Of a stretch of 64,000 nucleotides of DNA, positions 19,525-58,246 are shown in pieces; position 1 is the first letter of the stretch; every line of letters starts with the position of its first letter. A program made the position numbers and the translations under genes. The stretch spans positions 50,485,986-50,549,985 of the forward strand of contig OZ024875.1 of NCBI GenBank assembly GCA_964017185.1, given 5' to 3'. The notes under the pieces were generated by a model. That model ran no database searches, was not told where the DNA came from, and worked only from the letters and a program-made list of their open reading frames with translations. This DNA comes from Rugalucina vietnamica (lineage: Eukaryota > Mollusca > Bivalvia > Lucinida > Lucinidae).

Positions 19525-19669
19525 TCGAAGATTTTAACCATAAAGCTACCACCTAGAAAGGTCCCCCCGATTTTATCTAATTCTATACATGCCAAAATTG
19601 TGGAAAAAGTGTGGGGGGGGATCTGTTCAGGTCAGGTGGTACCGACATCTTAAATAGCTCATGGACCAA

Positions 19670-24867: not shown

Positions 24868-24904
24868 ATAAAGTGAGTGTGTAACTTGCTAAAGTTACTG
24901 TAAC
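24868..24904 (+). promoter_or_regulatory. 5' UTR segment and splice acceptor of the TRIM-FG gene
   Basis: TCTCTTTCAG ends at 24867, leaving 37 nt of untranslated exon before the ATG at 24905. The context TGTAACATGG is acceptable for initiation. An upstream non-coding exon is therefore expected but was not located. Confidence 0.5.
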
Positions 24905-26126
24905 ATGGCCACAAGGGAGACTCCGAAAGCTGGAAACAGCAGCACAGATGGGTTATGTTTGTCTCCAAATACAGTTACTGGAGAGCTTACTTGCTCAATT
25001 TGCTTCGAAATTTTTGAGTCACCAAGAACTTTACCATCTTGCTTACATACTTTCTGTGAAGAATGTCTGTTCAAGGTTTTTGATCGTGCTGATAAAGATT
25101 TTGACCCAGTGTATTTGTGCCCTGTCTGTAGAAAGTCAGTGAGGCGTCCAGGGTATGGTGTGTCCATAAAGAATTGGGTCAAAGAATTTCCTGTGAATCA
25201 TGTTATCAACTCATTGCTAACAAGTTACAAGAAAAAACAAGAAGAAAACCTCCAAACGCTGAAAGGAATCAGTTCTGAGCAATGCTCCTCATGTGATGCA
25301 CTAGAAACCACAGAATTCTGTTTTGACTGCCATGAGTTCATGTGCCAAAAATGCATAGACCTACATAATCATTTCAAAGCCACCAGGCATCATAAAACCG
25401 TGTCTGTGAGTGGTATGGAAAATCTTGAAAAACAGGTCATCGAAATGTCTAAATGCACCATTTGTTCAGTACACCATGATAAAAAGCTTGAGTTTTATTG
25501 CAAAACTGACAAAATTCCTCTTTGTTCTGTCTGTGCAACTGTTGACCATAGGAAATGTATAGACATAATAACTATTGAAAATCTTATCAAAGAGACTGCA
25601 TCCATTGAAAAGGTGAAAACAGTTATGAATAAATTGAATGATATTAAACCAAAGCTAGAGTCACATGAAATGATGCTGTTAAAGAACAGAGAGAGTGTTA
25701 AAGAAGACCTGAGAAAGGTCATTAAAACAATATCTGACAGTACAAATAAAGCCATTATAAAGCTTCATGAGTTAGAGAAGAAAACTATTGAAAACTGTAA
25801 TGCACTGGAGAGGCAAATCACTGAATCGCTCAATCAAAATATTCAAAGTTGCAAGACACTAGAGCCAAATATTGGAGAATTGGTTGATAAACTGGAAGTA
25901 GCACTAAAATTTGGCTCTGAATTACAAGTGTTCCTGGAAATGGAAAAGATAAAAACTGAAGTGGATTCTGTTTTCCACTTAGCAGCTGAGAAGCATGGAG
26001 TTGCTAACACATATAAGATGACATTTAAGGAGGACAGCATTCTCTCAAAATTGATGTCAGCGTGTTCCATTGGAGAGGCTGTTAAAGAAACAGCACAATC
26101 TGAAATAAAGCCATTGACTATTGAAG
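24905..26126 (+). CDS. TRIM-FG exon 1: RING, B-boxes, coiled coil
   Basis: Residues 1-407. It carries the whole TRIM N-terminus: RING (CSICFEIF ... CPVC), B-box-like clusters (CSSC...CFDCHEFMCQKC; CTICSVHH...FYC...CSVC...H), then a heptad-rich helix. The donor is GAAG|GTAAAG at 26127, phase 1. If the intron is retained, a stop at 26153-26155 gives a 416-residue stand-alone TRIM protein. Confidence 0.88.
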
Positions 26127-29100
26127 GTAAAGTGTGTTTCATGCAGTTTGTTTGATAACCAGAATTTTCACAACTTTTTTCACACCCAGATGTTTGTGGT
26201 ACATATAATATCTCTTTTACAATTCAGACATTGTAATTTTGTTGCATTAGTCAATGATTCAAGAAACTTTATTTTCCGTCGGTTTTTATACAACAAATAA
26301 CATTAGCTACAAGAGCTATTTTCCGACATATGAAATGCTGTTCAAAACAATTACATTTTGCTAATTTGCTGTTACTTGTTGATACTTTGACTAGTAATTA
26401 TTTCAGCTGTAAAAACGATCGTTTTCCAATGAAACCCCACCTCACCTGCACTGTTCTAAAAAGTACCCACAATCATTGTTCTCAAACAAAATGTTTTAAA
26501 GAAAAAGTAGAGTGAAAACATTGCATTTTTTAAAGCTGAGCATGTTTTTATTTTGACTTTGCATTTTATTTCAGAGAAGCTTGAAAGTTCTAAACAAACT
26601 CTCTGGAAATCTATACCAAAAGCAGTGACTCCTTTGTTCAGTATAGGGACTGATCATGGACCCTTGGCTCAGCCAGCCACCAAAAACAGAAAAATGGAGA
26701 AAACAGGCGACAAAGGTATGTGTAATACTTTTAATCAAGCTCTTCTGATGCATTTTAAAGCTGCATTTATTGTATTCAAGTACCTCCTTTGTGCCAGAAA
26801 GATTACTTAATTTTTACCCCTAGATGTATGACAAAGGTAAAACCAGAATCAGTTTAACATTAACCTCTGTTAGTAGCTCTACCCAACTGAACTATTCTAC
26901 AAGTACATGTACATACAATAATACATTTATTATTCTGATAGTCGGCAAATGCATTTCAGCAGGATATACAGGTATGTTGATACATGGTTATGACAACCAG
27001 TCACAGATCATTTATATGTCAAGGACTTGTGGGTAAGCTCGGTAAGGTAGTTTTGATTCACCTGCATTTGTGGTTAGTTTGGCAGCCAATTCTATTTCAT
27101 CTATATTTTCAGGTATTGCCACCACTTTCAGTTCAGCGTCATTTGGAGGCATGGCAAATAGTTTTAGGCCACCTATAGCCTCAGGAACTACTGCATCCAC
27201 TCCCATTTCACTGACTTTTGGAGGTTTGACAACTAGTTTGAATTCACCTGTGTTCGCATTTAATACTACCAGATTCAATTCACCTGTATCTGGAGTTATG
27301 CCAACCAGTTTCAATTCACCCTTATTTGGAGGCATGGCATCCAGTTTCAATTCAACCACATCTGGATGTGTGGCACCCAGATTCAATTCAGCTTCATTCC
27401 AGGGTTTGACAGCCAGTTTCAATTCACCTGTTTCTGGAGTTATGCCAACCAGTTTCAATTCACCTGTATCTGGATGCATGACATCCACTTCCTATTCAGC
27501 TTCGTTTGGAGTTATGGCACCCAGTTTCAACTCGCCTTCATTTGGAGGTATACCACCCAGTTTCAATTCACTTGCATCTGGAGTTATGCCAGCCAGTTTC
27601 AATCCAACCACATTTGGTGGCATAGCAAATACTTCCAAGACATATTCATTTGGAGTAATGGCACCCACTTTCAACTTTCCTTCATTTGGAGGTATGCCAC
27701 CCAGTTTCAGTTCATCTTCATTCAGCCCTTTGCCACCCAGTTTCAGTTCTCCTTCATTCAGCGGTTTGACACCCAGTTTCAGTTCTCCAGTGTTCTCTGC
27801 TATGGCAGCACCTGGGACAAACCCATTTTCCATCACCACTATTGGAAACAGCTCGCTACCAAATCAGACACCAGTACATGTAACTGCCAGCAATGAAACG
27901 ATTTCAGTGAGCACCACATCTTGTGCTGGTGGGAGTGGTGGAACAACTATGCCAATGTCAACAACTGCTAATAACTTAAGGTAAAGAAGTACAACAAAAC
28001 AACAAAAGAATGTCACACATATGCTGTCGACATTTGATAAAAGTGTTGTTTTCTTTTATGTTGTTCATAACCTTATAATTCCAACTTTTCTAGTTTCCTA
28101 CATTCTGATCGGTTGTTTGGAAGACTTTATATTTTGATAAAAGCAATGTGTAAGAATACTTGGTTTTCACCTTAAGAACGGCACTACATTACGTGATTAC
28201 GTTTTGTCGGACGTTTCTTCCAAGACACGTCAACGTCTTCAAATCTAAACGTCATAAAAACAATCGATGAACGCATTATGAAAGGCGTCCAAATTAATAC
28301 GGTATTCATTCTAATTAGCGCACAGTGCCCTTAACTTTTCAATATAGCTGAAAGTTAAGGTAACAAAAAATCATTCTAATTGGCGCATACTACTAACGAA
28401 AACAACACCCCAAATTGTTGAAATAACCATGTCAAATCTATCAATGTTGATGTCATTTCAGTGTTAAAATAGTTGCAAAAAGTAGTTTTGATCAATTATG
28501 GTAAAGTGCATCTAATGTGGTATTACTGTGCAGAATTGGTGAAAAATGCTAATATACTATTTGAGCAGAGTACGCTTGTGCATGTGCTCTTCGGAAACGA
28601 CCGGGGTGTGTGCTTATTGGAGCATGTGTGCTAATTAGAACGAATACGATATTTGGATTTTTTTTCAACATGGACACACTTTTTCGTTTAACAGTTCTAA
28701 CATTGTACGGTAAGTGTTTCAATCTTGTTGTGTGTTGAAATTTGATGTTTGAATTTCTAATGTTCCTAGCCCCAGTTCTAAATCGACATGTTCTTCTATC
28801 GGTCCAGACGGCGATATTTTCTCCCAAAAGAACAACTTTGAATAAAGGGGAGGTGTTTTAAAGCTCCAGCTTTTACTGACTACCTAAAACAAGCCAGTTA
28901 TAGCTTCTATTAATTGCAAGAAGTGAGTTCTGAGCTTTGGAAATTTTAAAGATGGCTGCCTCATGAAGATCCGTTTTGCTCTATTTTCCTTCCGCTGGCT
29001 ATGAAAAATTTAAATCAATGTAAATGTAGATGAATGCAGTGTAATAAGACGAAGTTGGAATTATAAGGAATGAATCATTATTTTTGTTGATTTTATCGAT

Positions 29101-32100
29101 GTGTAAACTCAGACGAATCACTCGCAGACTTTTTCATAAAGCCCTTCCGGCTTTATTTCATAAAGCCCTTCCAGCTTTATTTAGTTAGCATGGTTAGTGT
29201 GCAGAAAGTCAGTAATTAAAGGAGTGTTTATTGTATTTTCTAATTTGAAATGAAATAACAAGGATTAATTCATTTTTTATTCAAAATCTATGGAACAGTT
29301 TCACAAAATTCTAGTGTTTTTCTGAATATCAACAGGAATTTCCCAAATTATCATTACATTACATACACATTGACCAAAAATTGCTGCTTTCTAAGATGGT
29401 TTCCCGGCAAAACCAATATAGTAACTAACCAAGTCTTTTTATCAGACAAATTGATGGAAGAAAATTATTAGTCTGCAATGACAAACAATAAATAAAATCT
29501 ATGGAAAATAATGCTTTTTTGCACTTCTTTACCTTACTTTGCACAATTTCTGGTTATAAAACTAGTGGAACAAATAAAGAATTAGCAGCACTAACGTCTG
29601 CTTCAGCAAATATCTTAACATGTAACGGAGCAAATGCTGAAAGCAAAGTATCCTCTTCAGTTATGTCTGCTAATAGTTCTGTTATAAATGGAATAAACGA
29701 ACCATCAGTAACTGCTGACAACAAAACATTCTCTTCAAATGTGTATGCTAATAGTGCTAGCATTAATGGAATAAATGAACCATCAACAGTCACTGACAAC
29801 AAAACATTCTCTCAAAAAATGTCAGCAAGTGGTTCTGGCATTAATGGAATAAATGAACCATCAACAGTCACTGACAACAAAACATTCTCTCAAAAAATGT
29901 CAGCAAGTGATTCTGGCATTAATGGAATAAATGAACCATCAACAACTGCTGATAACAAAGACACGGTTTTAACTAAGATTTCAACCAGTGGTGGGGGTAT
30001 ACCTGTGTCATCCACTGATTCAACTGGTTCTGTGTTGACATTTAGTTCATTTGCATCCAGTGTTCTCTCAACAATTGGGACTAATACTTTTTCAGTAGCA
30101 GCATCTACTACTGTTAAAGATAGTGCTAGTTCTACAGAATCTGTTTCAAAGTCTAAGACTTACAGGAAAAAGGTTCTAGAAAGGTCATACAAAAAGAAAC
30201 AAGAATCAGGAGAACAAGTAGTATCCCAGTGTCAGTCAGGTACAGCTGGAAAGGGATTTGACTTCAGCCTGAGTTCAAGTGGTGAAGGTCAAAAGGACAA
30301 CACTAATACACCAGGCGTAACAAATTTCAAGTTTGGTATCTCAGAAAATAGCTCTTCAGCTGTGCCTTTTACTAATACAGCTACTACAGTGAACACTTCA
30401 AAAACAGTTCGACCTAAACAGACATGGACTCCAGAAAATGAGCAGATGATTGATAAGATTTTCGAAAAGGTAATGCAGCTTTCAGCATCAGTGGAAAGAT
30501 GTTCTCAAGCTGCAAATCAACTTACAGTTTCAGATACCAAATTGGTAAAGAAAGCACCATCTGCATTTGTGCCATATGTTCCTATATCTGAATTAGGCCC
30601 AGTCAAGTCCAAGCCAGTTGGAATGCCTTCCACTGCAGAAGTAAAGAAAACTGTTAGCACAGAAAGGACAAGCACAAAGTCAATAGCATCTGTGAGCCAA
30701 AACTCAATATTGGACATGCCAACATCCGACAAACAGGAAAATGCAAGGAGAGTGGTGAAACCAGTGAAAAAGATGTTGCAGCATCCCTCAAACAATGCGG
30801 GTGTGAAAAAGGGAACTGGTTTAATGTTTGACACACCAACATCTGCCACCAAGTGCAATGGGAGGGGTATTATAAAACCAGTGAATAAGATATCCGAACA
30901 TTCCTCAAACAAAACTGAACAACCATTTTCACCATCAAGTCCAACCTACAATGATGCTTTTCCACCATTAACCAGTTCAGTGTCTGTACCTGATTCAATG
31001 CCAGAACACCCTGGTGTGTCCAGATCTGTGGCTAAACCCACTGGCACTGATCCTCTGAATGTTTCTAATGTAATCACTGCTAGACCAGTATCACTGACAG
31101 CAAATGTAACATCATCAGGGGCTGTAAGTGTGACACCTTTAACAACAACGCCCATAGGATCTTCAGCTTCTACAACACCTACAAGATCTTTTGCTACCAT
31201 GGCTTGTTCTGTTCCACCTGCCAAGTCAGCACCTGTAACTACTATAACCACTAAACCCACACCAGCATTGTCTGACTCTCTCACCTCAAGTTTGGCTGCT
31301 GTTAGTCTTGATACCAGCACAACAGAAGGAGGATCCCAGGCTAAACAATCTAGATCTATGCCATTACAAGGGACACCAACTTCGGGCACAATGACAGGTA
31401 AATTTGAGTTTTGCCTTTAAAGTCCCTTTTGAATTTGGCATGTAAAGGTTACTTTGTGTTTTCAAAGTCAATCTTGAAAGGATTTTAGTTCCGAATCGGT
31501 TTGTTGAACAATAATTTATGTGATAGGCTCATACATGTATCAGCCAGATATGCAGCTTCCAATACTGAATATGTGCACACGTATAAGTACGGTAGCTTGA
31601 TCAGCTTCGAATTTGGTTAAATGATAGAGGTTTATGAGAAGATTACCTGAGAGATTAAGTCTTAGGATATGGCATCTCAAAAATTGTTTCAGCCAGGAGC
31701 TTAAAATTAGTAATTTTATTGAACAGTGTCCTGGGCCCAGTTGTTCAAAACTAACGACGTCGTTAGTTAACGTTTCGTTAAAATTTCAAACATTAATAAT
31801 ACAAATACACTGTTATTTTTTGTTGAAAAAATGTGAGAATCAAGGATTCTCACATTTTTTCAACAAAAAATAACAGTGTATTTGTTACTTGAGCTGTTAT
31901 TTGCCTAACAAATTTATGTCTTAACGATATCGTTAAGCTAACGATGCTTTGAACAACTGGGTCCAGGTGTGTAAGGTCTACATGAACTAGATTTGTATTT
32001 CCTGTAGAGCCATTTAAGAAGAAAAGAAGAACAGAATGGTTTCCTGGATTGGTCAAATATACAGCGGTGCCGCCAATACATGACAGTCGGACACAGTTAG

Positions 32101-42865: not shown

Positions 42866-43102
42866 GGGCCCAGTTGTTCAAAGCATCGTTAGCTTAACGA
42901 TATCGTTAAGACAAATTTGTTAAGCAAATATCAGCAAATACACTGTTATTTTTTGTTGAAAAAATGTGAGAATCCTTTGCAGTGCAAAGGATTCTCACAT
43001 TTTTTCAACAAAAAATAACAGTGTATTTGTAATATTAATGTTTGAAATTTTAACGAGTCGTTAACTAACGGCGTGACGTCGTTAGTTTTGAACAACTGGC
43101 CC
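42866..43102. mobile_element. Palindromic MITE family 1, copy 3
   Basis: The most symmetrical copy. The stem of about 60 bp centres on CCTTTGCAGTGCAAAGG at about 42975, with GGGCCCAGTTGTTCAAA and TTTGAACAACTGGCCCC ends. Confidence 0.92.
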
Positions 43103-43517: not shown

Positions 43518-43667
43518 TCAATATCTTTCAGTTAAAGGCACCATTTCAAAATCCTCATCTTTAATCATCAAACTAACATGCTGTTCCGTCATGTTCAGTG
43601 CTGCATCGAAATAGTCATCCGGGTCCTCTTGTGACGTGTCGTATTCAGAGTCGCTCCCTACCGCTTC
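43518..43667 (-). CDS. SLC26 exon 18 (terminal)
   Basis: 49 residues plus stop. Acidic tail ([17 protein letters not shown]) ending PLTERY; no class I PDZ ligand is visible. The acceptor is TCCTACAG. Confidence 0.9.
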   Translation of the reverse strand, partial: EAVGSDSEYDTSQEDPDDYFDAALNMTEQHVSLMIKDEDFEMVPLTERY

Positions 43668-46600
43668 CTGTAGGAGAAATAAGATGAAGGTGTGATTAAA
43701 TATGAGATATGAGCCTGTGCATGAGAAAACCAACAATTTGGGTTCCTACCAGGTCTGACACAAACCTAGCTGTACAGTCACTGAAGCAGGCTAGAAGCTT
43801 GAAATTTTGAATTTAAGTAGAAGAGGGACTCTACTATCTCTGTAGCGAAAACAAAGGCGCTGACCAGCTTCGCGGTTACCGCGAAGCTGGTCTGCGCCTT
43901 TGTTTTCGCCTATGCAAATTATTGGTTTTCCCATGCAGCGGCTCATATTTCGTAGAGATTCAAAAGTTTGAAGAGTTCTGTCGAAAAATGGTCATGATCA
44001 CAAGCACGTATATGCATAAACCAATCAGAAATGCATCAGCTAAACCAAAATTATTCTTGATCATAGAATTTTTCACGAATCCCAAATGCGCAAATAGAGA
44101 ATCTCTCAAATGTATGGGTATACAAACCAGCAGGGTTGATCCAGACTTTCTTAGGACGGGCGGATCCAGAATTTCTCGGGTGAAGTGGTTCAAATCTAGT
44201 AAATAGTGGCTCGTTTTCTGAATTTCACAAAATTTTTTCAAATTCCCCATGAAAATGCAATAATTTAGTCTTCAGAGTGGGAATCATAAGAGAGGGTTGA
44301 AGAGAACCCACTCTAAATCCGCTACTATACGTACCTTTGGTTTTTCATCATCTGTTTCATCTTCATCATCAGCGTCCTCGTCTGTCTCTCTACCACCTGG
44401 TGTCTCCTGGATCGCCGAGATCTCCCTAAACAGCTTCACGTCAATAGGGTTTGCCAACTGACTCTAAAAAAGAGACGCAAATATGATGTGAAGAATGGCC
44501 GAATATGCGGTATGGACTTTTTCCCCATCTTAAAAATTCATTATCTGGTGTCTGCTCTTGGGATACTTTATCGAGATTGCGACATGGCTATACGGAAATG
44601 TTATATAGCACCATGTTGGAACATTTGTTTCTCTCCAAGCAACTGAAGAACAGTCATGAAATGGCAAATGGCTCCAACAAATACCTTGCAAATTTTGCAT
44701 TTTCGATTATTCTCAAAACAAATTAAAAAAAAAAGTTTGATCGAACTTGGTTTTATATGACGTACCTTTGCCTCGTCGTCCAGAATTTCCTCTCCAATAA
44801 CAACGGCCTCGTGAATGGTATAATATATACAATTATAATTCACGGACCTGTAAAATTCGGCCTGCCGCAACATGTTCCGAACTTCAGCTGTAAAAGGAAA
44901 ACGATCTGGCATAAATCGTATGAACTTTTTTCATGTAGTTCATGCCTTTCAGGCTCAAAAACGTACATTTGATCATTATTCATTGAGATACATTTTAATT
45001 CTGCACTGTAAGCTGGGCAAGGACATTTCTTCTTTCAGAAAGCTGTTCCATAAAGATATTGTAGCCAAATCTCACATTGGAGTCAACAATGTGACTAATA
45101 CAGTACTGTTCAGTCTAGCGACTTGTCAGTAGTTACAATACGAAAACTTGCCCATGCAATAAACAGAGATTTTTTGAGGTTTAAAAATTGAAACTTTTCA
45201 GGTGAAAATTTTTGATATTTTTCTTATTTTTGCTCAAAACATAGATTGTGGGTACACGTTAGAACCGCCTCGCCGAGGCGGTTCTAACGAGTACCCACAA
45301 TCTATGTTTTGGAGCAAAAATAAGAAAAATAGATATACCTCCGTATACCCCAGTTTTACTATATAAAAGTGGGGTATAAGGGGGTATTCCTTACACGGAC
45401 ATGTTTTCCTGATGACTAGCTTCAGACCAGAATAGAAGTTACCATTGAAGTTATTTGTCTACCCAGTTTTAGTCTAAAAACGTGCCAATGTTTTATGTTC
45501 ATAGATGTTTGAAGTAGTGGTACATTATGTATAGAATGTAAACTTCTAACACCAAAAGCATTGTTATCGTTTACTTGTATGATATGTATCTTCTAGTACG
45601 ACTAGTATTATTCTACTTACTTTTACAACCGGCAAGGAAAACTTTGATTCCAATTTCCTTATAATCATTGACTATCTGAAAAAAAAAAATAAATGGTTCT
45701 GATTTAAAATAATTTAAAATTCTTCAGAACACCGATGGGTCACCCATAATAGCTGTGATATCAATCTTTTCTAGATATTACTTTTATAAGTTTATTCTTA
45801 ATTTCATTCTTTCAGCATTTAAGATTATCTTCAGGCGCTGAACACGATCACATCTCCAGTCACGGTATATGTTTTAAAATCTATTTTTTTTTAAATTTCT
45901 TTCACAATGTACCTTTTTTTCTATATTACTCGACTGCAAAATATATAATGAGCTGTACAATGATTGGAACCTATCAACTTACGGCGGTTAGAGTTTTTAT
46001 TCCAACAGTGTCCACATAGCTGACCAGAGACAGGTCTATAATGAGTATTTTGATAGGCGGTTGCCATGCCGCCTTAAACCGCTCCAAAATAATTCTATTT
46101 TCTCTTTTCTTTTTCTCTTGTTCTTCGTATGGGTCAACATGCTGTACTGCTACTTCGAACGAATATTTGGACTTGTAAGTCTTTTCCTGAAATTAATGGA
46201 TATAGAGTAAATTAGTGACGGCAAAAAATCTAAAACACTAAGTCTTGACGCTGTAGGTAGAAATTTTCTGTTAAAGTTTTTATATGTCTGTATCTCTTGA
46301 ATATGTAGATGGGTCAAGTTGATACTTTGCATGTTGGCAGATATTGGTCTGAAGTTTTATATTGTACCATCACGACCCACCTGTGTGACCTTGAGGTCAA
46401 TGTCATGGGTCATAGATTTTAATAGATTTACTGGGAAAGCACAAGTCAGGCGAGCTACGCTGTCCTGCGACAGCTTTTACTGAGTTTTGAACCTGAATTT
46501 TCTTCTAATTTTGACTATTTCAGCATTTGTGAGCAGTTGAAATTTCATGGCATGAAAAAAAAGTTTTATAACCTCGAGGTCAGGAACTCATTTATTCACT

Positions 46601-49600
46601 AACCTTTTCTTTTCTCCTCTGTTCCTCTGCCTCTGCCACTTCTTGTTTTCGCCGTAACAGTGTATCATGCATCGCACGTCGCTTCTTTTTCCGCAGTTTA
46701 CGCGGTATCAGGCCCGTCTTCTGGTATAATCGGTCTCGAAAGTGTTCGGCGTTTGCGAAATAAATCGAGGATTCAAATCTAAAGATTTTCATTCCTTTGA
46801 CTTCGTTCACCTAAAAAGGAGGCAGATTTTCAATAATGTGTATGTTCACATAATAGACTGGACCAAAAATCACCAGTGCTAAAATCGCATTTTTTTCCAA
46901 GTTTTAGTCTTTACGGAATTCTGTCTAGACATTACTTTTAAGGTATCACTTCTCAGTAGACGGCTATTATGAGCCATAATTAAATAATTAGTAACGTTAG
47001 TTATATAATTATTCAATAAATATAGAGAGGGAAATAGAATCTTTTTTTATATAATGGTTGTAAAACTATTTTTATCATCATATTTAAATATTCATAGATT
47101 GTTTCTGCAAATAGTATGCAAATCGTACATATTTGCATTAAGAACAATCTTATTTACCTTATTTGATGTTCTCATGTCTTTATAAGCTCCCGTTCCTGGG
47201 ACCTGGCCCAACTGGGACATATGAGGTCTGCAATAGCATAAAGTATAGAAATTAATAATAAGAATGATTGCACGTGAATAATATTTTTTTACTCGATTCT
47301 AGCTTGAATCATAGTATCGATGGATGATCGAAAAAATTATTTTGACATGCTTCCTACGAAAGCGTGCTCACTTTAAAGATACAGTAAGAAGGGGTTATTC
47401 CTATGAGAAGAGGCGCTAAAAATATCCCCACACCACCAAAAATCACCAACCCCACCCACAACTCTAATAATGGTATGGTGTAACTTACTTTTGTGAGTGT
47501 CTGAGGACAAAGTAGAGGGAGAACGTTATTCCTATGAGGAGACCAATCGCCACATCAAACACCACTACGGCTATAAACGTCACAAGCCATACCGCCTATA
47601 ATGAAGAATAACATCGTGATTCACCCATATTTGACGAATGGTTTTTCCCATGATTATCAATGGGGTGAGTCCACTTTCATTTTTAGGGGTGTTAGGAGTG
47701 ATTTTTATTTTTTATCTTATTTTTCGATGAAATTTCTCTGTGCAAACAGAAAAGCCCCAGATGCTGCGGCGTCCCATCTGGGGCTATTCTGTTTGCCTAT
47801 GTCCCATAAAAGGGACGCCAGGATTAAATGAGTTAAGACATCTGAGAAAGCGAAAGAAAAATGTCTTCCAAACATCAGCACATTACACAAGGAGAAGAAA
47901 ACGTTACAGTTGTGCCGGGATTAAGAACAGAAACAACAGATGAGGGCCCAGTTGTTCTAAATTAACGACATCTTTAGTTAACAATTCGTTAAAATTTCAA
48001 ACATGAATATTACAAATACACTGCAAAGGATTCACGCTTTTTTTCAACAAAAAATAACAGTGTATTTGCTTTTGAAGTCGATATATAGTTAACAAATTGA
48101 GGGCTTAAAAATGACAGCGTTTAGCCAACAAAGTTTTGAACAAATGAGCCCTGGCCGGCAACACGGTAACTACAGAGGGAGTGTTAGGAGATATACTGGA
48201 TGGCACGTGAAGGACATCACCTCCAAGAAATGGTAAAATTATTGATTCAAATTCAAGTCAATTCCCGTTTACCATGAAACATAATATCATGAATATGTGA
48301 CACTGTTACTGTCATTAATCATGCATAAACATTTTCAAAGGTCGATATTTCTGATTATTTCAGTTTATTAGTAAGTTATACTGAAATAAGTCACAGGAGT
48401 GCTTTAAAGCATCGACTGTCACACTATACGTATTGATATTTCAAATGTTTATGGGAAGGCTTAGTAATTTATCCAGTTTTTGATGCAAGTTGGACGTATC
48501 TAAATTTTTAAAACGTTTATGTTTTAACGATAGGACTAGAAAATAATGATAATATCCCGAAAGATTTTTTAATGTGTTATTTGTTTTTCTGAAAAACACT
48601 GACACTAAATTATTCTCACCTCTGAATCTGTCAGTCCCGATGTTTTGTGGAGAAGTGACGTAGCATTGCTAAAACTGCCATTGCTGACCGTGTACAAATT
48701 TAGACCGTGAGTAACATTGTACACACTAACGTTCATTTCAACCTTAATTTTTCCACACAAACGTTCATTTCAACCATATTTTTTCCACACTAAAGTTCAT
48801 TTCAACCTTAAATTTTCCTCACAAATGTTCACTTCAACGTACATTTCAACCTTAATTTTTCCACACTAACGTTCATTTCAACCTTATTTTTTCCACACTA
48901 ACGACACTAATGTTCATTTCAACCTTATTTTTTTCCACACTAAAGTTCATTTCAACCTTAATTTTTCTTCAAACATATAAACTACCATGTTTTGAGAGCT
49001 ACATGTCTCTGACATTCTTTGGCATATCATTCGTTGTTTTGCTTGAGTCAGTTTTCAACATGTAAAAGCTGTCTGTCAAATTATCTATTTATTAATCATC
49101 AATGATTTCAGTTTTTGTAAACACCATCCTTTTAACTAATAATTAAATTGCTTTATTTCCAAAACAAACTGGACAGTTGCGAAAATTGTTGCACACCAAC
49201 ACTATTAAAGATACATTCTGATACACCTTCACGCTTTTTTTGAAAATTTGTAATTTCACAGAATAATCAAGGAATTGCATATCTTATAAAATGTACATTT
49301 TATAGTAAACTGTAATAGATGCAGGTATCATGTTTCCATAACTCATTAATGCGTGGTAAACCTCACTCAATATTCCTAAATTATTTTCCAGGAGATACTG
49401 TCATACTCGTAGATGCACGGTCTCGCATATGAGATGACTTCAAAGCCTTGTTTGCAGTTAATTACTTTATTAAAATTTATGAGAATCAGTGAAGCATGAC
49501 AATACTGGGCCTTTATCGTGTACAAAGTAATGCATTATTCTTTTAACCCATATTTGACGAATGGATTTTCCCATCATTATCATTAGGGTGAGTCCACTTT

Positions 49601-52600
49601 CATATTTAGGGGCGTCAGGAGTTATTTTTAATTTTTATTAAAATTTTCGATAAAAATTCTCTCAGCAAACAGAAAGACCCAGATGGGACGCCGCGTTTTG
49701 CGGCGTCACATCTGGGGCTATTATGTTTGCCAGCTCCCATAAAATGGACGCCAGGCTTAAATGAGTTAAACAATTCCCAAAGGTGCGAGGCTCATATCCC
49801 AACAATCAATTCTACATGGAAAATTATATTTCTGTAACAAACTTCAAAACTATATAGAAATTTTATGTTTTATTCAAAGCTAATTAGATTATTTCACTAG
49901 AGAATTTATAAAGCTTTGCAAGCCAGATCTAAAGGTTCGGCGCTAGGTAACGTTTTCACATGCTTTAAAACATATAACCGATAAGCACAGAGACAATAAA
50001 CTTATAATCTCTGAAAACGGAAAAAAAAAACTTAGTATCTCTCTTATATTTTTTATATCTGCAAATTCAACAAACGTACATTTTCCTATTTTTGCCCCAA
50101 AACATAGATTGTGGGTACTCGTTTGAACCGCATCGGCGAGGCGGTTCTAACGTGTACCCACAATCTATGTTTTGAGCAAAATTTTTCAATTTTTACAACT
50201 TAAGAAAACTCTATATATTAACTCACAAAATCTTTTTTCGACAGTTTCCAAAGTCTTCCAAGCTCCCCGAATTGTAGGAACATTCCCTTTAGCGTCACGA
50301 TAACTATGGCAGCTAGAATACACTGAAAAACAAAAACAATTTTGAAGAATTACATCTAGTTCGAAATCTATCTCATCAATCATAAAATCTAGAGACATTT
50401 TAAGTAAACGTGCTAATAACGCAGGTACATTCAGTATCATATATGTACTGAAATAGAAGCTCTGCATGTATTTTGAAAACTGCATGCGCTAGATTTTGCT
50501 TGGCTATTACCAAACACCTCTAAATCACCAGGGCTTGAAATTATCGTAAGATATCATCAGTAATGATATCTTAAGAAAATTTTAAAAGAACACAGATATT
50601 GCAAAACAACATGATCTTACCTCGGGCAAAGAATGGAAGAGAGGTCCGATATATAAAAGCACCACCAGAACCACGCAAGATGATATGATACCCACAAGCT
50701 GAGAAAATAAAGATATTACATGCATTAAATGGTGCATTAAAATGAAGAAGAAAATCTCATTTGAACAAATACTGAGGACAGAACAATAAGAAGAAAAGAC
50801 AAACGTTGCAATGACGTTTTTTTTTTTTTTTCTGTCTAAAAATGACGTTCGAGCTATTTTTATTTAGAAAGCATCATTCCTTGGAATGAGCCGTGTTTTA
50901 GTATCGTAGATTTGAAATAACAGTACTCTATGATACCATTGGGATAAATCCAGATAGTATCAACAACCACACATATGTCGGTTTCCACAAAAAATATCCA
51001 TTCATTTCTTAAAATTACCAGATGTACATCTAAAAGACAAATTTATTCAGTTCCTAAAAATATAGACCTACATAAAGGAGGCCGGATATTTTTTATCACT
51101 TTTAGATAATCTGAAGGAACTTTCGAATTAAAGAAGAATACATGATCATATATGAGATAAAATAGAATAAGTTAACCAAAACGCAAACAAATTTATACAA
51201 TGCAGTGAATGAAAAGGAAGGCAGCTGTTGCATCATATACAAAACCGACTTTAGTCGTGCATTCCGACAGATACCATTTTGTCCAATTGATTATGAACAT
51301 GTCACAATTGTGAGCATATTTTTGTGACTATGTTCTTTCGATGGTAGACATCTCGACATCTCGATATGACTGAAACTTTGTTGACTTGGACGTTAGAAAA
51401 TCAAGAGAACTTACAAATTTTGTGCTGTGTAATTTGATTGGTTAGCTGAAATTCGCGTACCTGCGTTTTCCCGCCAACAGAATCTTGAACGAGGCTGTCT
51501 AAAATTGATCCAGCGCAACACGTGGCTCTGAACATGGACCCAATCAAATTACACAGCCCAAGTGCGACGAGCTCCTATAAATAAACAGTGACGTCAACAT
51601 TAAGGGGTGTGGCCTACCTGAGACTTGCCTCCGGCTCCATCCTGAACAAGGCTCCGAGACAGAGAGGCAGCACAGCAGTAGGAGGAGAAAAATGAAGAGA
51701 TGAAGTTACACACACCCAGAGCGACCATTTCCTAGTATAGAAATAATAACAGAGGTTTCAGATATGCCACGGTAATACATAGGACAGGCGGTATTCGAAA
51801 TGTTTCTAAAAGATAACTGATGGACGTGAAAACAGAGATTTTAGTTGTAAATTGTTCCATTAAACTAAATGAACCGCGTTTGTCAAGGAACCTACGATTT
51901 CACAATGGTTAATTGAAATTAAAATGGGTGCTTCTAAGTGTGATCTTAAAAAATAGATAAAAGTGTCCTTTTTGTAAAACCCAAAAACGTTCGTTTTATT
52001 TGCATTTTCAAACATTAAATGTAATTTATTTCTTAGCGAGATTTGAAACTAAAACCAACCTGGTTAGCATTGACTCTGTATCCATGTCTGTCCGCAAGTA
52101 TCTTGGCCATCGAGTACGATATGGCATAGGCAATGAAGCCTATGATCAGTCCGTCCCCTAGAACCTCGGGGATATACTTGAAATAGCCTACGGTTGGTGC
52201 TGGCAATCTAGAGAAAGAAGCGAAAATGTACATCAGAACATTTGTATTACGATAACCACAAACATATAACGTCCGCCTAATTGATGGGCTGTTGAATACA
52301 ATTTGTAATCAAGTTTGCTCAATCAGAATGCTTGGAAATTATCATCTAGTATATCAGATATAGATATAGTCTGTATTGCTTCTTTCTATTTGGTTTTATG
52401 GACATGGTATTCATTTCTTGGTTTGATTCTCAAGAGACAATTTTATCATGCACAAAAAAAGCAAACTGCTTGAAGGAGAACGTGGCCAAGTGGCCAAAAT
52501 ACTTAGATATAATTACCCCTGTGGTATAACCCCAACAACAGTTACATTGAATTCTGACTCGAGCTTGGTGTAATAGGATATAATAGTACTGGCACAAATC

Positions 52601-55600
52601 TGAAAAATAAGCAAGAAATATGACATGAAAGCAATATATATCACAATGTTACATGATTGTTTAGACAGAATGTGTACAAAAAAAGTATGTTGCTGTTCCG
52701 ATTCTGATTCAAGACAAATCTCGTTCATATTGCTATAAATTGACGTTGCTTAAATTAAGGCGGTTTATTGTATAAATTGAATGTAGGATCACCAAACGAC
52801 TTGTAGGCAGATTTTGACGCTTGGTACATGTTTCATTTCCAAATATCAAACATTTCCAGAAAATTACTAGTGAATAACCCTTAGTTATCTATACTTCAGG
52901 TAAAGTCGGGCTTACCACGATAAGTTCTATGGGTATTGGCATCGGGAGGTCTGGTTTACAACTGTCGTTATTGTTGATACCTTCCTTGATGAGCACGAGC
53001 ACAAGTAGGCACGTGAGAGAGGCCGTGAACGTGACCATATTCGTCTGCATTATATTGGAGAAGAACTCCGCGTAAAACTGTAAATAAAAACAAGATAGAC
53101 GTACGTTCTGACAAGTATTTTACGATTCCAAATGAGAAACCTCTCGTTTCCTGTAAGTGGATTGACTGTGTAATTTTATTGAGCGTTTAATGAGCTGACT
53201 AACTATTTTGCTGTTACAATTTCGTGGAACACCAATGTTACACTATGTTGCTTCTTGATTCCAAAACAATGCTGTACTGGAATGGATTCTTATTATTAAT
53301 CATGATCTGATGATGAGGCAAGAAAATTCTTGATTTGAACTTCTTATTTAAATATATAGAAATTGTATTTGTAGGAAACTTACATAGACGAGAGCCAGGG
53401 GTCCATGGTAGTAATGTACGTGCACGCCAAAGATGTGTTTGATCTGACTGGAGAACACGTGACAAGCAGCCCCTGTTGTAAACCCACTGATAAAGGGGTC
53501 AGACATGAACGACGCCATCCCACCGACTCTCATTATACCAAACACAAGCTGCAAAATGAAATACAAGTATTACATACAGCAGCAGAAACAAATAGCACGT
53601 GCCTATGTGGACAATGGTTGTGGGAAAACGGAAACAAACGGTCGCGCTTCATATCAAAATGCTTTTGTGGTGTGCATGTGGAAAAATTATCCTCAGTGCG
53701 TCTTTTGTCTTATCAGCTGAGGGGATTAGTGATACAGGTACAAAGTTCAGAGACTTTATTTCCTCAGGCAAGAAGTAAACCAGGTGAGCCGGACTGACAG
53801 ACAGACTGAAGAATTCAAAATAATTATTATGTATTTTGACATTATTAACTTGTACACAATTCGACTAGCCGGTGTCCAAATAACTGCACTTACCTGAAAG
53901 CAACCGACAACAAACGTCACTGACAAGGCGTAGCCGAGTTTCACAGGGTTGGCATAGCCTTCAGCAGTGGACGGAGTGGGTGTCACGAGAGGTACTATTA
54001 CCGGGTTCGCCACCGTACCGTTGGCCGCCGTGGCCGCCGTTGTGTTGACTATCTCGGCGGCATTACCCAGGTGCATCTGGTACCCACGGTTCACAACCTG
54101 TCCTACCATCAGGCTCACAACAGCGAATGTACCTGAGAAAACGATAAAGATAAACATGATTCATGGCGTGTTAAATTATGAAATAATCATTTTGAATTCT
54201 TCAGATGAACCGACACTAATTGATGGCACCTCAAAATACACGTAGGTGTTAGATACTGATCAGGACATCTTATTTTTAACGTTTACCTCACGTCTATATA
54301 CAACTCATATAGTCTTGAGACGAAGGCTCAGTTATAATCAAGATTGCTTGTAAACCTTGGATAAAGAATTGCTTCCTATTTGTGCTTTACCATGCATCTC
54401 TTACACATAGCCCACACAACCAGCTGCCTTTTAACACATCATCGTGGTCATCCCCTATCCTACCCATCTCACCCTATTTTACCATTTCTGACTGCCAACA
54501 TTATCTATACCTTTGAAACAGTCAGGCAAAAGTTATAATTTTTTTCTAGCACTAATTGTAATTTTTGCAATGCTTAAATAAACTCCAATGCTTAACGGTA
54601 ATTTAATTAAATTGTGAAAAATCTTCTATTTGTACCTGCCTCTTCTAAAATTAAACATAAATTTTCCTCAAATCTAAATTTGATGATTATATTGGCGTAT
54701 TTGGCAGATATTTTTCCCTTTTCTGTTGAAATTTTGTTACTTTGATGAGACGAATTTCTAAAATATAGATATGGAATTTTCTTTTCATTTCTTAATACAC
54801 AATTACATTCTTTCTACTTTTCTGCGGTCATCTTGAATTTTAGCGACCATTTTTATTTTTTTATCTTAGCTTTTGTTACGTATTCGTGAACAATCTTAGC
54901 TTTATGCACCTTAAATGTGCTTTAACATTTCATCACATATATGTATGAAATTCTATATATGAAAATATTTTGTCGGCCATTTTGGATTTTGGTGGCCATT
55001 GTGATGTTTTATTTATTTTGATTTTGTAGCATAGTAATGGAAAAATGTCTTGACTTGATATTTTCTCCACTTTAAATGTCATCTTTTAATATTTACATAC
55101 ATGTAGGACGTTCTATCAAAAACCCTTATTTCATCGGCCATCTTGGACTTTGGTGGCCATCTTGATTTTTTAGTTTTATTTTGTTGCATTTTGATGAAAA
55201 AAGCTCAAATTTCATCAGATATATGTACGAAAATCTATCAAAAACCCTTCTTTTGTCGACCATCTTGGATTTTGGCGGCCATCTTCATCCGGATATCAAA
55301 TCAGGATACCAAATTATTTCTACAAAAACATTTTCTATAGACGCTATTGCACGGTCACATCGGGTTCATGCCGGACTATACAGTTTTCACCACAAAAAGG
55401 CGACTGCTGTCAAATGCCTCCTAATTATTAAACTAATCAAATGGCCATGTGGTTAACACATAAAACGCCGCACAAGACAATAGGCCCAAAAGATCGTGCG
55501 TTGGGTGAAGCTGAACGGTACTGTATGTCTCAACACTGTGAGTAACTTACCGACGGAGATATGTCTGGAAGAGCCGAAGAAGAAATACAGTAACACAGGA

Positions 55601-58246
55601 AAGAATGATGTATACAGGCCGTAGATAGGGGGTAACTGGGACAGGAAACCATATGCCATACCTGGAATAAAAATCGTGAGAATTGCTAAATGCATGGCAT
55701 ACGAGGGGTATTCACTTGAAAACATAAAAAAAACGAATGTTGTTAATAAAATAATCATTTAAAACGTCGATGATTCAAATGTACAGTCTGCAGTGTTGTC
55801 TTAAGCTTTTTAAAAAGCAGGGCCCAGTTGTTCAAAACGACGTCGTTAGTTAACGTTTTGATAAAATTTCAAACATTAATATTACAAATACACTGTTATT
55901 TTTTGTTGAAAAAATGTGAGAATCCTTTACACTGCAAAGGATTCTCACATTTTTTCAACAAAAAATAACAGTGTATTTGTTACTTTAGCTGATATTTGCT
56001 TAACAAATTTGTGTCTTAACGATATCGTTAAGCTAACGTTGCTTTAAACAACTGGGTCCAGAAGTTTAACGCAGCATGTCTTAATGCATCGCATAGAAAT
56101 ACACAATGCGTCATGGGAACATATCCGTAAACGGAACAGACAAGTTTGCAAATCGGATACGGTGAAAAGGGAATTCATATGATATATGAGAATCACCACT
56201 GAATAGTTTATGAACGCATTGTTCATCATTTTATGGGGTTTACGTGGAATCCCCCACTTGGAATGATGTAATTTTCTATTAACTATACGACAATAGTGTA
56301 AAAATATGTGTTTTTGACTGAACATTTCAGTTTCTTTATTTGATATTTCAGTACTGTGATAACTTGTTCAAATCATGGCACGTTTGCAAAACTGTCTGAT
56401 AAGTGATGCTCCGAGGATAAGTCAACCAAGACGTTAACCGTCAAAACGAAAATCACAAAACCGGTATTCGAATGTGCCAGATGTGAAGAAATTTTCAATC
56501 ACGCATTGACTCGCGCCTAGAAGATGCATAACGTCGAAACATAAAGAATTCGAAAGTCAGTGTGCTTCGAAAACGTTCAACGTGGAATTTTTGACGTCAT
56601 AGGCAACATTTTGACCACTGCACAATAATAGAGACATTCAAAAGGCAATCATTTTCTGCAGCAAAATTGCGATAAAATCACAGATGTGAGTCGTTCTGTC
56701 CAGAAATCGTGCCCATAACATCATAAACGCTTAGGATTTTGACGTTCAATTGCTAACGTAAAGCGTTAAAATCATATACACGTGGAACCTAAATGACCTG
56801 TATATTTTTTATTGTACGGTTATATTCATCTCGACAAACAAAAACAATTTTCAGAAATTCTGACTCGATAGTGTTTCCGTAAGCGGCTGGAGAGAAGCTT
56901 AAAATTGACGTCAGTCATCAAATGTCATTCTAGAAAAGGATTTCAGTGACGTTTTGCATATGTTTAAGATTCGTATTCCCAACATACACTGTATTTGGAA
57001 TATCTGTAAGAAGGAAACCATTTATGAACGTTTTTTGACCGAATCCGCAAGACTTTGCGTTTTTGAGGCGTGCATAGTGACGCGTAGAGCGTTTTTACCG
57101 CGTTTTGTGATGCAATGTAGCGGTTTACTAGGCGGTGAATAGTTCGTAGAGCTACCCAGGAAACTCATTTCTGGGATTCCTGGATCAGTCATAGTTTACG
57201 TAAAATTGAATAAACGTAATTTGTAGTCTGACGTAACGTCGCGTACAAACCGTCGCTGGGGAATAAACGTTTTGCGTAGAAACATTGTATTTAACCTATT
57301 TAACATAAGGAAACATCATATGTGTATACAGGATTTGATATCCCGCAACTAAGAGCATCACAGGAGTGGTACGTTTTCATTGGACATGAGTATATATGAC
57401 AACGCAGATATAGAGGATATTCAAGTTTTTGGAGTGAATATGAGTTTTATTTCATCGAGTGAAGTGAAAAAATTTTATATTTCATGAGTGCCGAAGGCAC
57501 GAATGAAATATATAATTTTTCACTTCACGAGATGAAATAAAACTCATATTCACGACAAAAACTTGAATTTTCTTTTTATTATATTGCATGTAGTCATTGT
57601 AACGTTGCGCGCTAAAGCATATGACGTCAAAATCTTAAATGACGTCATTACGTCACGTCATTACGTCGCTATTGTGTGTGAACGTTCATTGCGTCAACAA
57701 TAGCATAGATTATAAAATTTAGTTATCTATAAATTAGAAATAAAACGGTGGAATCGTAATTTGCGTATTCCCAAATCTTATATTTTCACATGTGAAAATA
57801 TAACTTTTTTTATATTTTCACATGTGAAAATATAACTTTTTCAAATATTGGTTATATTTAATACATATTTCTCTATATTTCATCACTTGTCATATAATAA
57901 ATTCTGATAAAACTGTTTCCCTACCTTGTGGTATGTGCATAATCCCGACCGTGAGTCCTGCGACAACGTCTTGGAGTAAGTTCTTCCGCATGCTGTACCG
58001 CTTCATAATCCTCACGAACGGGAACACTTCGTTCAGAAAGTCACTCGTACATTTCCGATCACACTTCATCTTCGGACAGAGTTTCTGAGTCTCCGCAACG
58101 AGTTCTTTGGTATAATGTTTCACACGGAGTTTGTTTTCGACAGTTTCGCGTATCCGCTGTTGGGATTCGTTCAACATGTGTACACGGAACCTGTGCTTCT
58201 TTGTTTTCGTCAAAAGCTGTTCACGTAATTCTCTGTTGATCGACAT
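43518..58246 (-). CDS. SLC26/SulP anion transporter with STAS domain (18 exons, alternative exon 8)
   Basis: The exons, 5' to 3', are 58246-57925, 55661-55551, 54132-53894, 53548-53384, 53077-52916, 52599-52517, 52207-52060, 8a 51731-51618 or 8b 51574-51461, 50698-50621, 50322-50227, 47595-47489, 47227-47158, 46810-46604, 46186-45983, 45675-45621, 44887-44766, 44463-44335 and 43667-43518. All are GT-AG and phases agree, giving 853 residues with either exon 8. The SulP signatures [23 protein letters not shown] and [16 protein letters not shown] are clear. A STAS domain (core [17 protein letters not shown]) carries a long charged insert. The family exchanges or conducts anions (chloride, bicarbonate, sulfate, oxalate) at the plasma membrane. 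It is closest in style to the SLC26A5/A6 group; substrate and exact paralogue are unknown. Confidence 0.95.
43711..43944. mobile_element. Hairpin MITE family 3, copy 3 (SLC26 intron 17)
   Basis: GAGCCTGTGCATGAGAAAACC start, GGCGCTGACCAGCTTCGCGG central palindrome, GGTTTTCCCATGCAGCGGCTC end. Confidence 0.88.
44335..44463 (-). CDS. SLC26 exon 17
   Basis: 43 residues: end of STAS ([16 protein letters not shown]) followed by an acidic stretch of Asp/Glu. Phase 0 to 0; the donor is AAG|GTACGT. Confidence 0.9.
44766..44887 (-). CDS. SLC26 exon 16
   Basis: STAS helix and strand ([12 protein letters not shown], then [15 protein letters not shown]). The acceptor is TTTTACAG. Confidence 0.92.
45138..45412. 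mobile_element. Hairpin MITE family 2, copy 3 (SLC26 intron 15)
   Basis: Best-preserved copy. The stem AACATAGATTGTGGGTAC...GAACCGCCTCG pairs with CGAGGCGGTTC...GTACCCACAATCTATGTT around 45276. The termini are CGAAAACTTGCCCATG and CACGGACATGTTTTCC. Confidence 0.9.
45621..45675 (-). CDS. SLC26 exon 15
   Basis: 18 codons, STAS strand ([14 protein letters not shown]). The donor is AAAA|GTAAGT. Confidence 0.9.
45983..46186 (-). CDS. SLC26 exon 14: STAS core
   Basis: 68 residues: end of the charged insert ([17 protein letters not shown]) and the STAS signature [19 protein letters not shown]. The acceptor is TAATTTCAG, the donor GCC|GTAAGT. Confidence 0.93.
46604..46810 (-). CDS. SLC26 exon 13: STAS start and charged insert
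   Basis: 69 residues. [21 protein letters not shown] is the first STAS strand and helix. It is followed by a basic helix ([20 protein letters not shown]) and an [10 protein letters not shown] tract, the variable insert found within animal SLC26 STAS domains. Confidence 0.93.
47158..47227 (-). CDS. SLC26 exon 12
   Basis: Linker from membrane domain to [23 protein letters not shown], matching the family's LGQ-PGT-YKD pattern. Confidence 0.93.
47489..47595 (-). CDS. SLC26 exon 11: last membrane helices
   Basis: [20 protein letters not shown] followed by [14 protein letters not shown], the conserved final helices of the SulP core. Confidence 0.95.
47620..47837. mobile_element. MITE family 4, copy 1 (SLC26 intron 10)
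   Basis: CACCCATATTTGACGAATGG start, internal stem GCCCCAGATG...CATCTGGGGC, and TTAAATGAGTTAA end. It matches 49552-49768 along its length. Confidence 0.82.
47944..48151. mobile_element. Palindromic MITE family 1, copy 4 (SLC26 intron 10)
   Basis: GGGCCCAGTTGTTC start and GAACAAATGAGCCC end. One arm of the central hairpin is deleted, so the long stem is lost. Confidence 0.82.
48717..48968 (-). repeat. About 30-bp minisatellite (SLC26 intron 10)
   Basis: Seven or more irregular units built on ACGTTCATTTCAACCTTA plus TTTTTCCACACTA. Confidence 0.88.
49552..49768. mobile_element. MITE family 4, copy 2 (SLC26 intron 10)
   Basis: TTAACCCATATTTGACGAAT start and TTAAATGAGTTAA end give a short TTAA-type terminal symmetry. 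The central stem is CCCAGATGGGACGCCGCG / CGGCGTCACATCTGGGG. Confidence 0.85.
50085..50219. mobile_element. Hairpin MITE family 2, copy 4, next to exon 10
   Basis: Central stem AACATAGATTGTGGGTAC / GTACCCACAATCTATGTT. Truncated at both ends. It stops about 7 nt from the 5' splice site of exon 10 (GT at 50226-50225). Confidence 0.82.
50227..50322 (-). CDS. SLC26 exon 10
   Basis: [18 protein letters not shown] helix and [14 protein letters not shown] loop. Phase 0 to 0; the donor is TTT|GTGAGT. Confidence 0.95.
50621..50698 (-). CDS. SLC26 exon 9
   Basis: [20 protein letters not shown] and FHSLPE: transmembrane helix with the conserved PL-LP ending. Phase 0 to 0. Confidence 0.95.
51461..51574 (-). 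CDS. SLC26 alternative exon 8b
   Basis: 38 codons, phase 0 to 0, acceptor TTTATTTATAG and donor CAG|GTACGC, no stop. It starts [15 protein letters not shown], continues [15 protein letters not shown] and ends DSVGGKTQ. It aligns without gaps to exon 8a (about 55% identical). At the family anion-site pair it has Leu-Asp (51502-51497) instead of Ser-Arg. The open frame, sites and conserved flanks argue for a functional alternative exon rather than a decayed duplicate. A stand-alone pseudo-exon remains possible. Confidence 0.85.
51618..51731 (-). CDS. SLC26 exon 8a
   Basis: 38 codons, phase 0 to 0, acceptor CTATACTAG and donor CAG|GTAGGC. It starts [20 protein letters not shown], continues [10 protein letters not shown] and ends DGAGGKSQ. 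The SLSRSLVQ block is the canonical family sequence around the half-helix that holds the substrate anion (Ser398/Arg399 in mammalian prestin). This is the reference version of the exon. Confidence 0.95.
52060..52207 (-). CDS. SLC26 exon 7
   Basis: [20 protein letters not shown], then [20 protein letters not shown] and GYRVNANQ, the conserved pre-helix and GY-V-NQE segment leading into exon 8. The donor is CAG|GTTGGT, a weaker 5' splice site than its neighbours and the one that would have to choose between 8a and 8b. Confidence 0.95.
52517..52599 (-). CDS. SLC26 exon 6
   Basis: [20 protein letters not shown] then VIPQG: the extracytosolic stretch with an NVT sequon and the V-G-IP-G motif. Ends phase 2; the donor is GG|GTAATT. 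Confidence 0.93.
52916..53077 (-). CDS. SLC26 exon 5
   Basis: [20 protein letters not shown] and [16 protein letters not shown], then [13 protein letters not shown], a conserved P-PIP-E-I motif. Confidence 0.94.
53384..53548 (-). CDS. SLC26 exon 4
   Basis: [40 protein letters not shown]: the strongly conserved [17 protein letters not shown] motif of SulP transporters. Confidence 0.96.
53894..54132 (-). CDS. SLC26 exon 3
   Basis: [18 protein letters not shown], then a Thr/Ala/Pro-rich loop with NTT and NGT glycosylation sequons, then [16 protein letters not shown]. The loop is the expected extracellular one between helices 3 and 4. Confidence 0.94.
54830..55300 (+). repeat. Diverged tandem repeat (SLC26 intron 2), 4 units of about 135 bp
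   Basis: Units share GGCCATCTTGGATTTTGG followed by TGGCCATCTTGA and a T-rich spacer, near 54830, 54970, 55135 and 55257. Confidence 0.75.
55551..55661 (-). CDS. SLC26 exon 2
   Basis: [38 protein letters not shown]: the SulP family signature region. Confidence 0.96.
55820..56059. mobile_element. Palindromic MITE family 1, copy 5 (SLC26 intron 1)
   Basis: GGGCCCAGTTGTTCAAAAC start and ACAACTGGGTCC end. Perfect core stem around CTTTACACTGCAAAG at about 55930. Confidence 0.92.
57418..57570. repeat. Long near-perfect hairpin (SLC26 intron 1)
   Basis: Arms of about 70 bp (ATATGAGTTTTATTTCATCG, GTGAAGTGAAAAA) fold back around GAGTGCCGAAGGCACGAA at about 57487-57505. Single copy here; MITE-like. 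Confidence 0.85.
57765..57850. repeat. Duplicated short palindrome
   Basis: TATTTTCACATGTGAAAATA occurs twice in tandem, about 32 bp apart, each a perfect 20-bp palindrome. Confidence 0.92.
57925..58246 (-). CDS. SLC26 exon 1 (start codon)
   Basis: 107 residues: cytosolic N-terminus ([20 protein letters not shown] onward, strongly basic) and the first helix [18 protein letters not shown]. The ATG is chosen because the frame is closed upstream. A possible acceptor (TTTTTTATCAG) lies 20 nt upstream at about 58267, implying a non-coding first exon. The donor is CAAG|GTAGGG. Confidence 0.94.

Follow-up and report, generated by a model that had tools for sequence, protein, structure and literature searches.

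Adjacent copies of exon 8 encoding arginine or aspartate at the anion site: probable mutually exclusive exons in an SLC26 gene of the bivalve Rugalucina vietnamica

Introduction

Can a single SLC26 gene carry two versions of one exon that replace each other in the transcript, and what would such a swap do to the transporter? The question is raised by a stretch of 64,000 nucleotides of Rugalucina vietnamica (positions 50,485,986 to 50,549,985 of contig OZ024875.1, assembly GCA_964017185.1; hereafter the window), in which a minus-strand SLC26 gene was predicted from the letters alone to hold two alternative exons 8 of equal length, termed 8a and 8b. Mutually exclusive exons in an SLC26 gene were not described among the literature matches listed, most subscription journals lying outside that search. 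An alternative first exon before exon 11 is reported for a new isoform of Slc26a4 (PMC13375699).

Results

The gene and its two copies of exon 8

The gene was modelled on the minus strand with a coding span of 43518..58246, in which 18 coding-exon positions are separated by introns that are all GT-AG, and it yields 853 residues and a stop with either 8a or 8b, in agreement with the two full-length 853-residue transporters that swapping had been said to produce. The modelled protein carries a Sulfate_transp domain (residues 90-512) and a STAS domain (residues 566-748); PF00916 matches the 8a form with E 4e-114 (381.7 bits) and the 8b form with E 2e-111 (373.2 bits), and the STAS match is the same in both (E 5e-19). 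The solved proteins closest to the 8b form are prestin and SLC26A6. Outside exon 8 the anion site looks canonical, since the IPQG turn of TM1 and the TM3 phenylalanine F137 align to prestin.

Exon 8a (51618..51731) and exon 8b (51461..51574), both on the minus strand, agree with the original prediction in coordinates, in their lengths of 114 bp, in phase 0, in their open frames and in their peptides, and have GT-AG sites. Either fits, as had also been claimed, between exon 7 (52060..52207, minus strand, ending in NANQ at 52060) and exon 9 (50621..50698, minus strand, starting with LVGII at 50698), and these boundaries match the gene model. The two copies are identical at 23 of 38 residues and 67 of 114 bases, the 47 differing bases ruling out an assembly duplicate. 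On searching the window with 8a by tblastn, 8b was found with E 6e-13 and the next match at 0.029, so the likeness is far beyond chance; in the PF00916 genome scan each copy was a separate match over the cut-off. We also considered 8b as a separate gene or pseudogene, which is ruled out as it lies between 8a and exon 9 on the same strand. The locus thus presents two homologous exons side by side that agree in length and phase, both of them flanked by usable splice sites.

An 18-nt direct repeat (94%) with its copies 131 bp apart (47394-47411 and 47525-47542) links exon 11 of the same minus-strand gene to the intron that follows it, a piece of the exon (LLIGIT) recurring there inside an open stretch; the intronic copy is perhaps a decayed partial exon duplicate. 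Elsewhere in the window there are frames at 1452-2807 (plus strand) and at 6837-7805, 12608-15046 and 19586-21675 (minus strand) that we take to be reverse-transcriptase-like and endonuclease-like frames of non-LTR elements, and a 420-codon open frame at 24893-26152 (plus strand) whose resemblance we presume to be to RING/B-box (TRIM-like) proteins. A further 642-codon open frame at 29492-31417 (plus strand) is Ser/Thr-rich with short internal repeats.

Other SLC26 loci of the genome

The genome (1.09 Gb in 47 contigs) was searched with 8a plus exon 9, with 8b plus exon 9 and with Pfam PF00916, giving at least 11 (E up to 0.001), at least 15 (E up to 1) and at least 40 matches, respectively. 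Besides the gene with 8a and 8b, at least 13 SLC26 loci are present. Among the best 18 candidates per search, scanned over 9.9 kb around the exon at five loci and over less at the others, a second exon 8 was not found at any other SLC26 locus. Exon 8 has a length of exactly 114 bp and phase 0 in all 6 of the 6 paralogs for which its boundaries were read; 8a and 8b therefore represent a clean tandem duplication of an ancestral exon. Five further loci have the transporter domain in a single open frame, and in the remaining two the segment is split differently, with an exon that ends just after the arginine.

Column 26 of the exon is arginine in 11 of 11 aligned paralogs, and also in the two split loci, both read from tblastn fragments, of which one may be degenerate. 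Of the five columns invariant in the 11 paralogs, column 26 among them, 8b retains the other four and 8a also four, having S for T at column 37. If only the six paralogs are taken, 14 columns are invariant and each copy retains 12 of them, 8b lacking A22 and R26 and 8a lacking L2 and T37.

It may be noted that the single-frame genes (L002, L003, L016, L019, L021; 649-874 codons) have P-P-R instead of S-x-S-R at the anion site. Four of the single-frame genes were aligned and used to scan GTDB, which gave one bacterial locus only, and a scan of viral contigs found no relative. At C3:54830702-54843687 (L025, L026) the matched fragments contain stops and a frayed segment before the arginine, and this is possibly a decayed copy, some of whose stops may be intronic. 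At a neighbouring SLC26 locus (L012, C1:79.26 Mb) exon 5 is present in a partial second copy whose N-terminal half is almost identical (L012:1682-1801 and 1974-2126).

Age of the duplication and selection on 8b

Codon positions 1 and 2 of the two copies are identical at 27 and 30 of 38 sites (57 of 76 together) and third positions at 10 of 38; the corresponding pS is 0.82, which is saturated, and pN is 0.28. As pS is saturated and pN low, 8b appears to have been under protein-level selection since an old duplication, and the same can be said of both exons so far as codon comparison indicates. The mean third-position identity over all pairs of the 11 other SLC26 loci in the genome is 13.7 of 38 (range 8-29), and therefore the duplication is not visibly younger than many of these genes. 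By these third positions it is old, at an age to which saturation permits no date.

In a neutral simulation started from 8a, with all the change placed on the 8b branch, we scored how often no stop arose and so few changes fell at positions 1 and 2. This occurred in 25% of runs at 0.3 substitutions per site, 5% at 0.4, 0.9% at 0.5 and none of 4000 from 0.75 upwards. These figures exclude a young neutral 8b only for an 8b branch above about 0.4, a length that is likely in view of the saturated third positions. In the protein tree the branch of 8b is 0.44 against 0.13 for 8a, with a support of 74 for the clade of the two.

The anion-site residue encoded by exon 8

On alignment with prestin, position 1 of the exon corresponds to residue 374, and positions 23, 25 and 26 to S396, S398 and R399. 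Exon 8 by this alignment supplies the N-terminus of TM10, which makes up half of the central anion site, together with the preceding stretch, which we take to be TM9. The original prediction had the two forms differing in one half-helix; in the prestin alignment exon 8 covers more than that, namely the stretch leading up to TM10 and the beginning of TM10, where the anion site lies. Exon 8a reads S-L-S-R at residues 433-436, so that S433, S435 and R436 match S396, S398 and R399. Exon 8b reads S-I-L-D, retaining S433 and placing L435 and D436 where prestin has the S398-R399 pair, D436 replacing R436. The N-terminus of TM10, where coupled exchangers are expected to have a basic residue, thus has R in 8a and D in 8b.

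Among solved SLC26/SulP sequences, the R399 position was viewed in 15 of 22 distinct ones (thermostabilised prestin being one of the 15 and SLC26A9 one of the seven unviewed), with R in 13 and K in 2. The prokaryotic SulP sample consisted of 34 loci, of which 30 were among the highest-scoring of many more matches in 146 genomes of one phylum and four more came from one genome of the same phylum; with L031 dropped, the 33 scored loci have R in 17, G in 14 and Q in 2, and none has D or E. Arginine is not universal in the SulPs sampled here, and in the sequences examined an acid was not seen at this position.

The basic residue (R399, R404 and R409 in SLC26A5, SLC26A6 and SLC26A4) is reported as important or essential: antiport by SLC26A4 and the motor function of SLC26A5 are said to require it, and in exchange by SLC26A6 it is said to be important; the same source gives V at this position in SLC26A9 and states that prestin R399V abolishes nonlinear capacitance (NLC) (PMC11078650). 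In prestin, chloride is described as stabilised by S396 and R399, with helix dipoles contributing more than R399 in simulations (PMC9584906), and anion binding is reported to fold the N-termini of TM3 and TM10 (PMC10699807). Prestin S398E is reported to have normal NLC, the electrical sign of the motor, and to be salicylate-insensitive, and one sentence of that source gives R399E, the engineered mutant closest to 8b, similar effects (PMC8755724); therefore an acid here need not break the protein, yet anion-site pharmacology is lost. With R399V abolishing NLC and R399E behaving like S398E with NLC retained, the functional effect of 8b is uncertain in both directions.

The 43-nt intron and splice-site strength

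The intron between the copies (51575..51617, minus strand) is only 43 nt long, as against 261 nt or more for each of the 17 others in the coding span when both exons are modelled. It contains branch-point-like adenines (yUnAy) suitable for the 8b acceptor, at distances of 18 and 24 nt from the 8a donor, that is, 25 and 19 nt from the 8b acceptor. In vertebrate genes the steric limit between 5′ splice site and branch point is given as about 50 nt (PMC7969005; PMC5740500), and potential steric interference is reported for 57 human clusters, or 9% (PMC5740500). Joining of 8a to 8b should be sterically blocked because the intron is so short, and the locus would thereby have a mechanism against joint inclusion, provided that the limit of about 50 nt is valid in Rugalucina vietnamica. 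It may be noted that joint inclusion would remain in frame; therefore nonsense decay cannot police it and steric exclusion would have to. The two donors score alike (7.8 for 8a and 7.8 for 8b), whereas the acceptor of 8b scores 3.3 against 5.7 for 8a, the other predicted acceptors of the gene ranging from 1.5 to 14.0. The weaker 8b acceptor suggests 8a as the default.

The inverted repeat around the 8b donor

An exonic arm of 22 nt inside 8b (51540..51561, minus strand) is complementary at 21 of 22 positions, 18 of them a perfect core, to an intronic arm (51420..51441, minus strand) that starts at base 20 of the intron following 8b. Between the arms lies a loop of 98 nt, which takes in the final 79 bases of 8b along with its 5′ splice site. 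The 18-mer core occurs exactly twice in the 1.09 Gb genome, at the two arms, by which an origin from a repeat family is ruled out. We also considered the intronic arm as a competing selector that pairs with 8a, which is ruled out as well: its best pairing there is 13 of 22 as against 21 of 22 in 8b, and the arm is therefore specific to 8b.

The minimum-energy fold includes the stem and encloses the 8b donor in it. Energetically the fold of the region is ordinary (z -1.17; 26 of 200 shuffles as good), and the window has ten inverted repeats with at least 17 perfect bases within 300 nt, whereas 50 shuffles gave none; of the nine others, at least 5 are copies of two repeated sequences. In view of the ordinary energy and the nine other repeats, the hairpin may be a mutational by-product, and a templated inversion could have produced the intronic arm without function. 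We place the chance that the hairpin regulates 8b a little short of even. Among the inverted repeats of the window, a perfect one of 41-47 nt (ACAAATACACTGTTATTTTTTGTTGAAAAAATGTGAGAATC) is present in three copies (31801-31885, 42935-43029 and 55884-55980) that have the look of a small foldback element.

Discussion

The view that the gene has two interchangeable exons is partly supported: on the side of the DNA, length, phase, splice sites, saturated synonymous divergence with a constrained protein and the short intron speak for it. The original prediction stated neither the change from R to D at the anion site, nor the 43-nt intron, nor the inverted repeat. From the genomic evidence both exons are very probably used in RNA and, given that they are, we have high confidence that they are essentially exclusive. 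The explanation we favour, and hold to be probable as a whole, is that 8a and 8b are mutually exclusive exons which swap a canonical anion site for a charge-reversed one. An old tandem duplication in an SLC26 anion transporter would have given rise to the pair, and transcripts would be spliced either 7-8a-9 or 7-8b-9, the 43-nt intron presumably leaving no room for the U1 and U2 snRNPs together and so preventing the joining of 8a to 8b. The 8a form would have the ordinary SLC26 site and probably be an anion exchanger. In the 8b form, D436 would reverse the charge that attracts the anion, its carboxylate perhaps standing in for the bound anion, so that this form may fold and move while no longer answering to or carrying anions in the ordinary way. 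It could also tune the transporter by co-assembly in the SLC26 dimer, and the hairpin around its donor might keep 8b off by default. Given use of 8b, markedly altered transport is the likely outcome.

That 8b is instead a relic, a duplicated exon once used and now decaying or silenced while only 8a is spliced in, we consider improbable. Such a copy might be expected to show what 8b does show in its weaker acceptor (3.3 vs 5.7), its faster protein evolution (0.44 vs 0.13), the inverted repeat over its donor and the loss of an arginine that no paralog has lost, and among the candidates scored in the genome a second exon 8 is present in one gene only. But synonymous divergence is saturated with low pN and no stop has arisen, 12 of the 14 invariant columns are retained, and the acceptor is intact with a donor that equals that of 8a in score. 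A different objection concerns exclusivity, namely that the exons are included jointly or the 43-nt intron, whose length is not a multiple of 3, is retained, giving regulatory or non-functional mRNA. Joint inclusion (114+114) is in frame and so would escape removal by nonsense decay, and special factors are reported to aid some short human introns, of 56 nt in the model used (PMC8363638); against this, 43 nt is far under the other introns of the coding span, the branch point is inside the published steric limit (PMC7969005; PMC5740500), and 76 tandem residues would be expected to wreck the fold. We regard this outcome as very improbable. The chance of an assembly or haplotype artefact is negligible, as 47 of the 114 bases distinguish the two copies, which follow one another in order within a single gene on a contig of 66 Mb, and no point in support of such an artefact was found.

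A variant compatible with the favoured explanation accepts that both exons are used but supposes the change at the anion site to be mild, with affinity tuned as in NKCC2 exon 4, because helix dipoles dominate binding or other changes in 8b compensate; we think this combination somewhat unlikely. It would agree with the greater weight of helix dipoles than of R399 in the prestin simulations (PMC9584906), with the frequent lack of R in bacterial SulPs (G in 14 and Q in 2 of 33), with the valine of SLC26A9 (PMC11078650) and with the report that prestin R399E resembles S398E in retaining the motor signal (PMC8755724). It is harder to reconcile with a basic residue that is essential or important in SLC26A4, SLC26A5 and SLC26A6 (PMC11078650), and with aspartate being a charge reversal absent from the sequences examined. 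At the other extreme, one SLC26 gene would give, through one splicing switch, a canonical anion exchanger and a charge-reversed isoform with a built-in acid at the central site, the switch changing the kind of activity under the control of the hairpin that 8b itself forms, and the 8b form acting as an anion-independent mover, a regulatory dimer partner, or a cation- or proton-coupled or channel-like transporter; this reading, taken with those activities, we hold to be doubtful.

Anion binding by SLC26 proteins and the working of prestin both centre on the arginine at the beginning of TM10. If the mutually exclusive use of 8a and 8b is true, nature would here supply a ready-made experiment on that charge, R being swapped for D in an otherwise unchanged protein, and the animal could retune its handling of anions or bicarbonate by splicing alone. 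SLC26 genes have been discussed as bicarbonate transporters in connection with larval shell formation in mussels (PMC6662379).

Among known systems, NKCC2 (SLC12A1) is comparable in that its transcripts take one of three homologous tandem exons 4 (B, A, F) encoding a transmembrane stretch, and the variants have different ion constants; it belongs to another transporter family, and the residue differences are described as of relatively low Grantham distance (PMC7818487), unlike the change from R to D here. The laboratory mutants S398E and R399E of prestin similarly place an acid in the anion pocket, with NLC retained and salicylate sensitivity lost (PMC8755724), but they are single-residue changes, whereas 8b has 15 of its 38 residues changed, the replacement of S398 by L among them. 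Natural variation at the same position separates SLC26A9 (V393) from SLC26A5, SLC26A4 and SLC26A6 (R399, R409 and R404), where it accompanies uncoupled chloride transport as against exchange or motor function (PMC11078650). That variation separates genes, whereas 8a and 8b would separate isoforms, and with an acidic residue. SLC39A14 and SLC25A3 belong to families, and have folds, unrelated to SLC26. The alpha-tropomyosin and alpha-actinin exons, which are not from transporters, reportedly owe their exclusivity to a branch point close to the upstream donor. Even so, SLC39A14 and SLC25A3 are solute carriers with mutually exclusive exons (PMC5740500), and in OGDH, though no transporter, exons 4a and 4b are likewise kept exclusive by a branch point less than about 50 nt from the upstream donor, the intron of 43 nt here being shorter than the 60-500-nt class scanned in that work (PMC7969005).
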